Assembly: GCA_949127865.1 (NCBI GenBank)
Contig: CASBQR010000117.1
Span: forward strand, 1-40,552
DNA length: 40,552 nucleotides
Reading direction: 5' to 3'
DNA from: Synechococcales cyanobacterium PMM_0082
GTDB taxonomy: Bacteria; Cyanobacteriota; Cyanobacteriia; Pseudanabaenales; Pseudanabaenaceae
The stretch's first letter is position 1; every line of letters begins with the position of its first letter. Below are positions 14,133-26,689 of the stretch, piece by piece. Under the pieces are notes generated by a model, which worked only from the letters and a program-made list of their open reading frames with translations, was not told the origin of the DNA and made no database searches. The position numbers were made by a program, and so were the translations under genes.

Positions 14133-16892
14133 ATGCTTCAAGCCATGGAAGAGTTTTTAGAACATATTGACTACGGGATTTTTGTCATCGCCGTATCACC
14201 TCAATTACATTTTATTTCTGCTAACTCAAATTGTTTGCACTTCTTAAATTCACAAATTAATTCACAAATACTTAGTTCTAAGGGTATACGTGGACTAAAA
14301 CCTGAAGAAATTCTACCAATAGAGTCGGCTCAGAGATTAATCAAAAATTGCGATCGCGCGATCTGTACCGAGCAGAAAGTTGAATATGAAGAAATCTTAA
14401 AATTTCCCGAACAGTCCATAGTGATTTCTGTACATTTATCGCCCTATAAAAATCCAGAAGGAAAAGTTGAAAAAATTATTGGCACTATCCATGATTTAAG
14501 CCAAAACAGACTAGCAAAGTTAAATCAGGAGATGTTTGCCTGTTTAGCGGGTGGTGACTCTGATGCCGTCATCATTGTTGATCGAGATGGCATAGTCAGG
14601 TTTGTGAATCATCCTGCCGAAATTCTATTTAATCGAGATGCAGATGAGTTAGTAGGTGAGCAATTTGGGTTGCCGATTGTCACTGGAGAACTCACAGAAG
14701 TGGATGTTTTAAGACGGGATGGACATTCTACCCCTGCGGAGATGAGAGTCTCTGAAACCCAAGGTGCGGATAAGATTGTTTATATTGTTGCCAGTCTGAA
14801 AGATATTAGTGTGCGTAAACTAGCAGAGGCATCTTTGCGCTTGCGGGATCGTGCTCTTGCTGCTAGTAGTAATGGGATTTTGATTGTTGACGCTATTCAA
14901 TTAGATAACCCCATTATTTACGTTAATCCCAGTTTTGAAAGAATTACAGGCTATAGAGCTAATGAAGTAATTGGTGGAAATTGTCGATTTCTGCAAGGTA
15001 GCGATCGCACCCAAGAGGGCTTAAAAATAATTCGAGAAGCAATCCAAAAAGGGCAGCCCTGTTATACGGTTTTACGCAACTATCGCAAAGATGGAACCCT
15101 ATTTTGGGTGGAACTATGGATTTCTCCTGTGCATAATGAGTTGGGCGAGTTAACTAACTTTATCGGCATCCAAAATGATATTACTTCTAGGTTTTTAGAT
15201 GAGAAGGAACGCCAAGAAAGTGAAGAGGTATTAAGAACAGTTTTAGCTGCGGTTAAAGAGGGAATCACCTTTAGTGATGAGCAAGGTAAATTTATCATCT
15301 TTAATCACGAGATGGAGGAGCTTACAGGGTATTCTCTGAAAGAGGCAAATGCCTGTGGGAATTTTATTAACTTAATTCATCCGCAAGATCAAGGGAGAGC
15401 GATCGCCGAAATATATAAACTGCATCAATTTCAGTCACCCATAGAATCCGAGGTAAAAATTTGTACAAAGGCAGGAATAGTTAAAAATGTTTTAGTTTCT
15501 ACTTCTATGGTTTCGCATAGGGATAAAACCATGTACTTAAGTGCCTATCGTGATATTACTGAACGGAAAAAAGCAGAAGAAAAACTCCGACAAACTACAG
15601 AAAGAGAAAGATTAATCGGATCGATCGCCCTGCGGATTAGAAAATTTATTGATCTAACGGAGATTTTACAAAATACGGTAGAGGAGGTACGGGAATTTTT
15701 GCAAAGCGATCGGGTCTTGATCTATCAATTTATCTGTCAATTTGCAGAAGAAGGCGAAGGTAAAATTGTGGTTGAGTCAGTGCAGAAAGAATTCTTGAGC
15801 ACCCTTGACAAAGAGATTAATGATGATTGCTTTACCGAAGACTATCTTTTCAATTATCCCCAAGGTAAGGTCACAGTTACTAATAATACTGATGATCTGA
15901 ACCTCGATCCCTGTTATACCAAATTTTTAAAAAGGTTTGCCGTAAAAGCTAATTTAGTTGTACCTATTACTTCGGGCGAGAGAGTTTGGGGGTTATTAAT
16001 TGCCCATCAATGTAGTGAAACTAGAATATGGAAGGAAGATGAAATTAACTTATTGATTGAACTAGCTGAGCAAGTGGCGATCGGAATCAGACAAGCGGAA
16101 CTCCTAAATAGAGTCCAGACCTTAAATATGGATTTAGAACGCCAAGTAGAAGAACGAACTTCTAAACTGCAACAAGCTCTAGCCAAGGAAAAGGAATTAG
16201 GAGAAATGAAGTCCCGTTTTGTCTCTATGGCATCCCATGAACTGCGGACACCCCTTGCGATCATTCAAGCATCTAGCGATTTACTAAAGCACTATAACCA
16301 TAAACTTAGTGACCAAAAGCGACTAGAAAAGCTGGATAAGATTCAACTAGAAGTTAGAAACATGACGGAGTTGCTAGAAGATGTCCTCACCATTGGCAAG
16401 ATTGAATTAGGTAAATTACGGATTAATCGCATACCTTTAGATGTAGAAATATTTTGCCAAGAATGTATAGAAGAGTTTAATTCGGCAATTAGTCCTAGCG
16501 ATCGCATTAAGTTTAAAACTCAAAATCGAGGAGGGGGCAAACCTGTTAGCACCTTGATTGATCCTAAATTACTACGTCAGGTAATTATTAACTTTTTGTC
16601 TAATGGCATCAAATACTCTGCAACTAGTCCTAAAGAGGTGAATGTGAATTTATTGTATGATGCTGAAAGCTTTGATTTGGAATTTATCGATCACGGTATT
16701 GGTATTCCTAGGGAAGATCAAGATCGGATATTTGAGTCTTTCCATCGCGCTCATAATGTGGGAAATATCCCAGGAACTGGTTTAGGGCTAGCGATCGCCA
16801 AGGCATCAGTGGAAATGCACAAAGGTAAAATTAAATTAGTTAGTGAAGTTAATGTCGGCACTACCGTTACAATTACAATTCCTTATCAGTAA
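14133..16892 (+). CDS. Multi-sensor histidine kinase with LOV-like and cyanobacteriochrome-like GAF domains
   Basis: A 919-residue soluble sensor kinase. The order is PAS (about 5-130), PAS (about 132-230), LOV-like PAS (about 235-355, GGNCRFLQG with Cys284), PAS (about 365-480), GAF (about 495-665), coiled coil, HisKA (SHELRTP, His702) and HATPase (DHGIGIP, GTGLGLAIA). The LOV-like domain keeps NYRKDGT and FIGIQNDIT, but Val replaces the usual Asn after FW. The GAF domain keeps a DXCF motif (DDCF, Cys566) and a second cysteine exactly 28 residues later (Cys594, DPCY where CH is usual), then VKANLVVPI and WGLLIAHQC. There is no receiver domain. The next gene supplies it with no gap. Flavin and bilin binding are inferred from motifs. 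Confidence 0.9.
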   Translation: MLQAMEEFLEHIDYGIFVIAVSPQLHFISANSNCLHFLNSQINSQILSSKGIRGLKPEEILPIESAQRLIKNCDRAICTEQKVEYEEILKFPEQSIVISVHLSPYKNPEGKVEKIIGTIHDLSQNRLAKLNQEMFACLAGGDSDAVIIVDRDGIVRFVNHPAEILFNRDADELVGEQFGLPIVTGELTEVDVLRRDGHSTPAEMRVSETQGADKIVYIVASLKDISVRKLAEASLRLRDRALAASSNGILIVDAIQLDNPIIYVNPSFERITGYRANEVIGGNCRFLQGSDRTQEGLKIIREAIQKGQPCYTVLRNYRKDGTLFWVELWISPVHNELGELTNFIGIQNDITSRFLDEKERQESEEVLRTVLAAVKEGITFSDEQGKFIIFNHEMEELTGYSLKEANACGNFINLIHPQDQGRAIAEIYKLHQFQSPIESEVKICTKAGIVKNVLVSTSMVSHRDKTMYLSAYRDITERKKAEEKLRQTTERERLIGSIALRIRKFIDLTEILQNTVEEVREFLQSDRVLIYQFICQFAEEGEGKIVVESVQKEFLSTLDKEINDDCFTEDYLFNYPQGKVTVTNNTDDLNLDPCYTKFLKRFAVKANLVVPITSGERVWGLLIAHQCSETRIWKEDEINLLIELAEQVAIGIRQAELLNRVQTLNMDLERQVEERTSKLQQALAKEKELGEMKSRFVSMASHELRTPLAIIQASSDLLKHYNHKLSDQKRLEKLDKIQLEVRNMTELLEDVLTIGKIELGKLRINRIPLDVEIFCQECIEEFNSAISPSDRIKFKTQNRGGGKPVSTLIDPKLLRQVIINFLSNGIKYSATSPKEVNVNLLYDAESFDLEFIDHGIGIPREDQDRIFESFHRAHNVGNIPGTGLGLAIAKASVEMHKGKIKLVSEVNVGTTVTITIPYQ

Positions 16893-16940
16893 GTGGTTCA
16901 CACAGCTCCATTGGCTAGCAAAATGACTAAGGCAAGCAAA

Positions 16941-18698
16941 ATGACTAAAATTTTAGTAATTGAAGACACTGAATCCTTACTAGAGGAAATCGCTGAAACT
17001 TTGAATTTAGAAGGTTTTGAAGTGCAATGTGCTAAAAATGGGGCGATCGGTGTGGAAATTGCTAAAGCATATCTACCTGATTTAATTATTTGTGATGTGA
17101 TGATGCCAGAACTCGATGGCTATAAAACCTTAGAAGCTTTACAAAATTATCCATCTACAGCCACAACTCCTTTTATCTTTCTAACTGCCAAAGCCGATCG
17201 CTCAGATATGCGCCACGGTATGGAACTAGGAGCAGATGACTATTTAACGAAACCTTTTACTACAGGGGAATTACTCGGAGCGATCGCCGCACAAGTAAAA
17301 AAAATTCAAGTAAAAAAAATCCAAATTGTAGAAGCCCAGAATGATACGCGCATGGAAACCGCCGTGCAAGAAGCAATCAGCAAACATGAATATCAAATTC
17401 AAGAATTAAAAAATACTAACGATCCTCTCACCAATCTGCCTAATCGCATTTCATTTCAGCAATATCTTCAAGAATCTATCAGCTATGCCCAAGTTAACCA
17501 TTGCTCCCTAGCTTTAGCTTTTATTGATATAGATGACTTTAATATTGTTAATAACTCCCTAGGGCATAAAATTGGCGATGTTTTATTTAAAGCCATTGCC
17601 GAACGACTACGCAGACACGCCTCTCCCTGCGATCCTTTGGCTCGAATGCAAGGGGATCAGTTTGGCTTGATTTTGATGCAGCCACCTGAACATCTAAAAC
17701 ACACCGTTCAGGAAATTTTAGAAGTTCTATCTAAGCCCTACAGCATATTTGGACATGAGATCTTTATTACTGCTTGTTTGGGGATTACCATTTATCCCCA
17801 AGATCATTTTGAGGCTGCTAATTTAATTAAAAATGCCGATATGGCTCTCTATTACGCCAAATCCCAAGGTCGGAATAATTATAAATTCTATAGCTCTAAC
17901 TTAAATTTGCGCTTGTCCGAACAAATGGCGATCGAAAATAGCCTACGCCGAGCCATCGATCGCAAAGAGTTTCGTCTGTATTATCAACCAATAGTTAATG
18001 CCCTAACCCAAAAAATTATTGGCATAGAAGCTCTAATGCGCTGGCAACATCCAGATTTAGGCATTGTTTTACCCGAAAAGTTTATCCCCCTTGCCGAGAC
18101 TACGGGGATGATTTCGCAACTTACAGAATGGGTGCTGGAGCAAGCTTGTAGACAGCTAAAACTTTGGCATTCATTAGAGCCACAATTCTCAGAATTATAC
18201 ATAGCCGTAAATCTATCTGCCTATAATTTCAAGCACGATAATCTCTTTGCCATGATTTCGGGGGTAATTACATCTGTTGATATTCCCTATAGCCAAGTAG
18301 AACTAGAAATTACGGAAGGTATAGTTATGAAAAACACTAGCCCCACCATTGAGGTGTTATCGGCACTACGCAAACTGGGAATTAAAATTGCGATCGATGA
18401 TTTTGGGGTCGGGTACTCTTCCTTAAGTTACCTTAAGCATTTGCCTGTGGATAAACTCAAAATCGATAAATGTTTCGTGCAAGATATATTAGTGGATAAA
18501 CATGATGCTGTAATTACTGGAGCAATTATTGAACTCGCCCATAGCCTTAATTTGATTGTGATCGCTGAAGGCGTAGAAACTATAGAGCAGGCTAAATTCC
18601 TCCAAGAACGGCAGTGTGAACTGATGCAAGGCTTTTTATTTAGCCCACCCCTACCTGCTGAACAACTTACTCAGCTTTTATTAAGCAAAAAGTTTTGA
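16941..18698 (+). CDS. Response regulator with degenerate GGDEF and EAL domains
   Basis: A 585-residue regulator. The receiver domain (residues 1-120) has phospho-acceptor Asp52 in ICDVMMPELDG and Lys in YLTKPF. The GGDEF domain (about 160-320) has its active site changed to MQGDQF, so cyclase activity is doubtful. The EAL domain (about 335-580) keeps IEALMRW, VNLSAYNF, ITEGIVMKN, DDFGVGYSSLSYL and IAEGVET, so c-di-GMP phosphodiesterase activity is likely. I chose ATG 16941 (AAGG eight bases upstream). The frame is open from GTG 16893, right after the kinase stop, and the stretch between carries a tandem SKMTKA/SKMTK repeat. It is the cognate output of the upstream kinase by position. Confidence 0.88.
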   Translation: MTKILVIEDTESLLEEIAETLNLEGFEVQCAKNGAIGVEIAKAYLPDLIICDVMMPELDGYKTLEALQNYPSTATTPFIFLTAKADRSDMRHGMELGADDYLTKPFTTGELLGAIAAQVKKIQVKKIQIVEAQNDTRMETAVQEAISKHEYQIQELKNTNDPLTNLPNRISFQQYLQESISYAQVNHCSLALAFIDIDDFNIVNNSLGHKIGDVLFKAIAERLRRHASPCDPLARMQGDQFGLILMQPPEHLKHTVQEILEVLSKPYSIFGHEIFITACLGITIYPQDHFEAANLIKNADMALYYAKSQGRNNYKFYSSNLNLRLSEQMAIENSLRRAIDRKEFRLYYQPIVNALTQKIIGIEALMRWQHPDLGIVLPEKFIPLAETTGMISQLTEWVLEQACRQLKLWHSLEPQFSELYIAVNLSAYNFKHDNLFAMISGVITSVDIPYSQVELEITEGIVMKNTSPTIEVLSALRKLGIKIAIDDFGVGYSSLSYLKHLPVDKLKIDKCFVQDILVDKHDAVITGAIIELAHSLNLIVIAEGVETIEQAKFLQERQCELMQGFLFSPPLPAEQLTQLLLSKKF

Positions 18699-25675: not shown

Positions 25676-26689
25676 ATGGATAGTCGTGTAGGTGTTTTAC
25701 TTTTGAATTTGGGGGGGCCAGATAAGCTAGAGGACGTTTACCTATTTTTATACAACCTATTCTCTGATCCTGATTTAATTCGCTTGCCCTTTAGCTTTTT
25801 ACAAAAACCTATTGCCTCGTTAATTGCTGCCACTAGGTCGCCAGTGTCCCAAGAAAATTATCGAGCGATTGGTGGCAAATCTCCCCTACGTCAATTAACC
25901 GAAGAACAAGCTGAATCCATTGAAAATGCCCTCCAACGTCGGGGGCTAAATGCCAAAGTTTATGTGGGAATGCGCTATTGGACTCCTTTTACCGAAGAAG
26001 CGATCGCTCAAATTAAAAAAGACGGAATTTCTAAGCTAGTAATTTTACCCCTTTATCCCCAATTTTCCATTAGCACCACTGGTTCTAGTTTGAAATTAAT
26101 CGATAAACTCTGGAAAAAAGATGCCGAGTTAAAAGCCATTGAAAAAATAGTAGTACGGTCTTGGTACGATCGCCCCGGCTACTTAAAGGCAATGACAGAA
26201 CTAATTGAAGCCAAAATCAAAGCCTTTGCTGACCCCGAAAAAGTTCACATCTTTTTTAGTGCCCACGGTGTACCAGAAAAGTATGTAACCGAGTATGGTG
26301 ATCCATACCAAATTGAAATTGAGAACTGCGTAGATCTAGTCATGAAAACCATACGCATAGACTACCAACGGTACAACGCCCATACTTTGGCATATCAAAG
26401 TCGAGTTGGACCTGTGCAGTGGTTACAGCCCTATACCGAAAAAGCGATCGCCCAGTTAGCCAAACGTGGAGTTAACGATATTTTAGTTGTGCCAATTAGT
26501 TTTATCTCCGAACATATTGAAACTCTCCAAGAAATTGACATCGAATACCGTGAAGTCGCAGAAGCAGCAGGAATCCATAATTTTGATCGGGTTCCCGCCC
26601 TTAATAGCCATCCTGTATTTATCAATGATCTAGCTGAACTTATTCTGGAATCCCTTGAAACCTCTGTGACTTTATCAGGAGTCTCTTAG
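25676..26689 (+). CDS. hemH: Ferrochelatase (short form, no CAB-like tail)
   Basis: Inserts Fe2+ into protoporphyrin IX, the last step of heme synthesis. Family blocks are [46 protein letters not shown] and [16 protein letters not shown]. At 337 residues it ends soon after [18 protein letters not shown]. Most cyanobacterial ferrochelatases continue with a linker and a chlorophyll-a/b-binding helix (about 50 more residues), absent here, and no remnant is seen in the next 107 bases. Start ATG with TAGGA upstream. Confidence 0.95.

Follow-up and report, generated by a model that had tools for sequence, protein, structure and literature searches.

The prototype DXCF cyanobacteriochrome is the GAF domain of TePixJ (PDB 3vv4, 4glq and 2m7u), which carries one cysteine in its DXCF motif and one at the canonical position and is coupled to a chemotaxis-protein output. 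The closest solved sequences and structures to the GAF domain described here are those of the dual sensor histidine kinase 6oap/6oaq/6ob8 and of NpR3784/miRFP670nano (red/green lineage). At the level of the whole circuit, a close described system is CdgK–CdgS of Anabaena PCC 7120 (all2875; PMC9927289), in which a kinase with an FMN-binding, LOV-like PAS domain and a GAF domain shares its operon with an enzyme of c-di-GMP metabolism. With these systems we compare a locus in the window, that is, the whole 40,552-nucleotide stretch of DNA that was analyzed. The locus has the following features:

14133–16892, + strand: gene for a multi-sensor histidine kinase of 919 amino acids (open reading frame, Pfam, full-length homologs)
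14838–15218, + strand: LOV-type PAS domain, residues 236–362 (best matched in sequence by LOV domains of known structure, E = 7.2e-40)
15651–16088, + strand: GAF domain of cyanobacteriochrome type, residues 507–652 by Pfam limits (Pfam, PDB phmmer, AlphaFold2, Foldseek, tree)
15720–15743, + strand: 12-bp tandem duplication (ATCTATCAATTT twice, one mismatch) coding for IYQF-ICQF (Tandem Repeats Finder)
15822–15833, + strand: DDCF motif, starting at residue 564, with the second (DXCF) cysteine, Cys566, at nt 15828–15830
15906–15917, + strand: DPCY motif, starting at residue 592, with the canonical bilin-attachment position Cys594 (nt 15912–15914) followed by Tyr595
16206–16409, + strand: HisKA domain, residues 692–759 (Pfam)
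16560–16886, + strand: HATPase_c domain, residues 810–918 (Pfam, E = 2.1e-25)
16893–18698, + strand: REC-GGDEF-EAL response regulator (Pfam, alignment of six orthologous regulators)

The domain order of the kinase is PAS–PAS–LOV-type PAS–PAS–DXCF GAF–HisKA–HATPase, and its full-length homologs are 73% identical in the same genus (the orthologue G001) and 39 to 52% identical elsewhere. The predicted phospho-acceptor of HisKA, His702 (SHELRTP), is invariant in a three-way kinase alignment. Comparison with G001 revealed purifying selection, with dN/dS values of ∼0.10 for the GAF domain (0.168/1.61), 0.11 for the LOV domain and 0.06 for the kinase core, figures that are rough because synonymous sites are near saturation between the two genes. 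Elsewhere in the window, a ferrochelatase gene (25676–26689) represents an ordinary heme synthesis context.

A sequence-only reading of this DNA had assigned the GAF domain to the DXCF-type cyanobacteriochromes, and sequence, predicted structure and phylogeny all bear the assignment out. The Pfam GAF match has an E value of 5.5e-21, and the translation of the open reading frame places Cys566 of DDCF exactly 28 residues before Cys594 of DPCY. The DPCF-to-ECH spacing of TePixJ, counted on the aligned sequence of the 3vv4 chain, is also 28, confirming the claimed agreement with TePixJ, and the two flanking family blocks that had been named, VKANLVVPI and WGLLIAHQC, are indeed present at residues 604 and 619. 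Three positions, the Asp and the Cys within DXCF and the canonical Cys, do not vary in a 57-sequence alignment, which was picked among two-cysteine domains and so shows coherence, not frequency; among relatives chosen by similarity only, references included, 77 of 91 two-cysteine rows have the 28-residue spacing. The Pfam match and the invariance of the cysteines in the 57-sequence alignment argue that the DDCF/DPCY pattern did not arise by chance.

The best PDB sequence matches of the domain in phmmer are all bilin GAFs, namely 6oap (2.2e-35), RcaE, NpR6012g4, miRFP670nano and TePixJ. An AlphaFold2 model built from the 57 sequences (mean pLDDT 82.5, pTM 0.80) likewise returned bilin GAFs as its top Foldseek matches (6ob8, TMq 0.89; TePixJ entries, 0.75 to 0.80) and thus, as judged on the predicted model, has the cyanobacteriochrome GAF fold. 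Phylogenetic placement came from a maximum-likelihood analysis of 107 GAF domains, few of them non-bilin GAFs, with red/green cyanobacteriochromes as the outgroup. Here the window GAF lies inside a clade holding PPHK, NpR3784, RcaE and TePixJ (100/98), with the same-genus orthologue as its nearest neighbor (100/100), in a tree in which many deep forks are open and the bootstrap had not settled. Rather than falling outside the cyanobacteriochrome GAFs, the domain is therefore nested among bilin-binding references. A specific grouping with TePixJ is not recovered among the 107 domains, TePixJ itself being placed, together with two DXC-I paralogs, on a long branch. Given its sequence kinship, the canonical Cys594, the second Cys566 in DDCF and its bilin-binding clade, the view that it is a genuine, ordinary dual-cysteine DXCF cyanobacteriochrome domain is well supported by sequence.

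The genome to which the window belongs has heme oxygenase and phycobilisome genes; a bilin reductase was not found in this metagenome-assembled genome (MAG), which is 85% complete. Because of that incompleteness, the phycobilisomes and the ferredoxin-dependent bilin reductase of a same-genus genome, a gap in the MAG is likelier than true absence, and phycocyanobilin is very probably available in the host. A lack of bilin in the host was rejected on the strength of the phycobilisome genes and the same-genus reductase.

Upstream of the GAF domain, the LOV-type PAS domain has the LOV adduct cysteine, Cys284 (nt 14982–14984), in GGNCRFLQ, and Cys284, Asn316 and Gln347 stand at the spacings of C450, N482 and Q513 of AsLOV2. 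The full flavin-contact set of AsLOV2 (N482, N492, Q513) is incomplete, with Val326 (nt 15108–15110) at the place of N492, the second flavin-contacting Asn (PMC9098866). Valine at this position was found only in the window and G001 among 89 LOV rows, the others having Asn (nearly all), His or Gln. Since AsLOV2 N492A still photocycles (time constant 54 s vs. 80 s; PMC3903614), the window LOV domain may, by analogy, still respond to light despite Val326.

The response regulator gene is annotated from a GTG that abuts the kinase stop codon; a later start, such as the ATG at 16941, is likelier. Its GGDEF motif is degenerate (QGDQF). Its EAL domain (Pfam, 2.8e-76) has the catalytic motifs of a c-di-GMP phosphodiesterase; as judged by eye, all six regulators conserve EAL, DDFG and further motifs, and the predicted net activity of the protein is c-di-GMP hydrolysis. 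Kinase and REC-GGDEF-EAL genes are adjacent in the window, G001, L044/L045, G029, G008 and G002, which represent several genera of the same family. This adjacency and its conservation in relatives suggest a putative kinase–regulator pairing. The likely circuit couples two light inputs to a c-di-GMP phosphodiesterase through a single kinase.

Both GAF cysteines are kept in every homolog examined (G001, L044, L045, G029, G008, G002 and G007). Most of the paired relatives have Cys-His; G008 has Cys-Tyr, with a spacing of 30. In the LOV domain, FWN is intact in the LOV-bearing paired relatives except G001. The LOV part of G008 is assigned on the presumption that contigs L046 and L187, which overlap at the end of the former and the start of the latter, hold one gene. 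The G002 kinase (L184 832–3162) has both GAF cysteines and no LOV domain, and a related kinase in G007 (L189 2615–5362) keeps the GAF cysteines, has lost the LOV cysteine and is followed by a gene other than REC-GGDEF-EAL. Among these kinases, the GAF domain is better preserved than the LOV domain. A genome-contig scan with the whole kinase gave mostly LOV relatives. Since the GAF tree by itself does not unite the window with the other similarly built kinases, the case for orthology beyond G001 is made from domain order, gene order and full-length identity. A kinase–regulator family in which LOV is present, altered, cysteine-less or absent offers a test bed for two-sensor c-di-GMP control.

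For the locus as a whole, we consider it probable that a bilin-binding, dual-cysteine DXCF GAF and LOV kinase drives the neighboring regulator. In such a system, the GAF domain would most likely attach phycocyanobilin, possibly isomerized to phycoviolobilin, via Cys594. Cys566 would reversibly ligate the bilin C10 in the dark state to give a blue-absorbing form, which light would convert to a longer-wavelength form. From its position directly before the HisKA helix, the GAF photochange would set kinase activity jointly with the upstream LOV flavin domain, and the kinase would pass its phosphate to the receiver of REC-GGDEF-EAL, the product of the next gene downstream, leading to c-di-GMP hydrolysis. 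Counted against this explanation are the missing bilin reductase in the MAG, the low-confidence GAF insert and the Cys-Tyr red/green types lacking detectable photoconversion, both described below, and the distance from TePixJ in the tree.

The sequence-only reading had also singled out the tyrosine that replaces histidine after the canonical cysteine. The substitution is real, but its status as a distinguishing oddity was lost once relatives were counted. In a tally of 101 GAFs, comprising the window domain and 100 relatives (similarity-selected domains of related genomes together with paralogs from the window genome), 49 combine DxCF with Cys-His and 31 combine it with Cys-Tyr, so that 31 of 80 DxCF domains have Tyr, a share (∼39%) that is approximate because resemblance to a Cys-Tyr query guided the sampling. 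On the GAF tree, with that column left out, at least 22 switches between Cys-His and Cys-Tyr are required; shuffled His/Tyr labels gave 31.2 switches on average and never fewer than 25, indicating that the state is partly inherited yet flips often. Cys-Tyr is also documented in NpF2164g5, miRFP670nano (H87Y) and an engineered SPI1085g3 (PMC9378818, PMC6336887). The tally, the tree switches and these published proteins rule out Cys-Tyr as a novelty and remove a false lead: far from being a rare marker, this state is repeatedly gained and lost among DXCF cyanobacteriochromes. Two further GAFs of the window genome have Cys-Tyr (L038 5390–5896 and L043 4242–4826), one of DXCF type and the other grouping with red/green cyanobacteriochromes and bearing a long insert. 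Two other GAF paralogs in that genome (L042 3783–4259, minus strand, and L040 4318–4800) have DPCIP and DACIS, respectively, without the canonical cysteine, and resemble the described DXCIP lineage.

As for the consequence of the tyrosine, in miRFP670nano it stacks on biliverdin, and SPI1085g3 with the His-to-Tyr change showed more biliverdin uptake and fluorescence (PMC9378818, PMC6336887). That Tyr595 alters bilin tuning or binding, as had been proposed, is plausible from these precedents, which are single-cysteine red/green types from which a DXCF domain is an extrapolation. Tyr595 is one of the two states that are common in nature at this position, and it probably tunes the chromophore without abolishing its binding. 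G001, whose GAF domain is 71 to 73% identical, keeps Cys-His (DDCF with LCH), and in these close orthologues nature provides a pair for comparing what the residue does.

The precedents also feed the strongest rival account, in which the GAF domain binds bilin covalently and hardly photoconverts, the tyrosine stacking on the bilin in a locked or fluorescent cyanobacteriochrome, and the kinase responds to light mainly via LOV or the GAF domain reports bilin supply. Some Cys-Tyr red/green types combine high fluorescence with undetectable photoconversion, among them the natural Cys-Tyr domain NpF2164g5 and miRFP670nano (PMC9378818), and by analogy with them and with the brighter SPI1085g3 variant, the photocycle of the window GAF could be weak. 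Yet all of these are single-cysteine domains, and a residue so frequent among DxCF domains, gained in many independent switches, is unlikely to be generally function-destroying. We regard a largely inert photocycle as unlikely, and favor a photoconverting DXCF domain.

Less likely again, and in our view improbable, is that recent damage or degeneration has left the window GAF a cyanobacteriochrome unable to bind bilin. What invites this reading is the window-specific 12-bp duplication, which puts ICQF after IYQF where the first sheet strand ends. This four-residue insert, with its extra Cys535, is absent from G001 in both DNA and protein comparisons, and model confidence there is low (about 65 at residues 41–50 of the AlphaFold2 model). 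The insert may have no effect or may harm the domain; in addition, Asn replaces the Asp of G001 nine residues before Cys594, and Lys replaces its Arg in the QGR motif. Against damage speak the open frame, the retention of both cysteines, a model that folds as a bilin GAF and the strong purifying selection since divergence from G001, a very recent loss being nevertheless compatible with the dN/dS value. Separately, we rejected Cys535 as the mark of an insert-Cys cyanobacteriochrome, its origin being a local 12-bp duplication for which no tie to the described insert-Cys loop was found. Finally, that this is an ordinary small-molecule GAF with coincidental cysteines is very improbable: Pfam goes no further than the general GAF family, but the top matches in sequence and in structure are all bilin GAFs and two cysteines at a fixed spacing are the family pattern.

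Beyond the DXCF assignment, we suggest tentatively, and with rather less than even confidence, that a single soluble kinase combines the signals of two blue-light sensors of different chemistry, a flavin-cysteine LOV and a dual-cysteine bilin GAF, to set c-di-GMP hydrolysis, that both pockets changed in the window lineage (LOV Asn to Val; GAF His to Tyr, plus the insert), and that sister lineages lost the LOV input. If so, two-sensor kinase lineages would form a natural series for swapping one photoreceptor for another.

The kinase–regulator pairs of G001, L044, L045, G029, G008 and G002 share with the window the domain order, the gene order and both GAF cysteines. TePixJ shares the fold, the DXCF and canonical cysteines and their spacing at only 34 to 36% identity; unlike TePixJ, the window domain has Cys-Tyr in place of Cys-His, carries the four-residue insert and belongs to a histidine kinase. 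The 6oap/NpR3784/miRFP670nano group is alike in the histidine-kinase context of 6oap and the Cys-Tyr of miRFP670nano, but, unlike the window domain, has no cysteine at the DXCF position (DQYF, DRYF). CdgK differs from the window kinase in being membrane-bound and in having CHASE, two REC and one Hpt domain, and we found no report in PMC9927289 of bilin binding by its GAF domain; CdgS makes c-di-GMP, whereas the window regulator is predicted to hydrolyze it. CdgK–CdgS is a precedent for a cyanobacterial kinase that combines LOV with GAF and is linked to c-di-GMP (PMC9927289).
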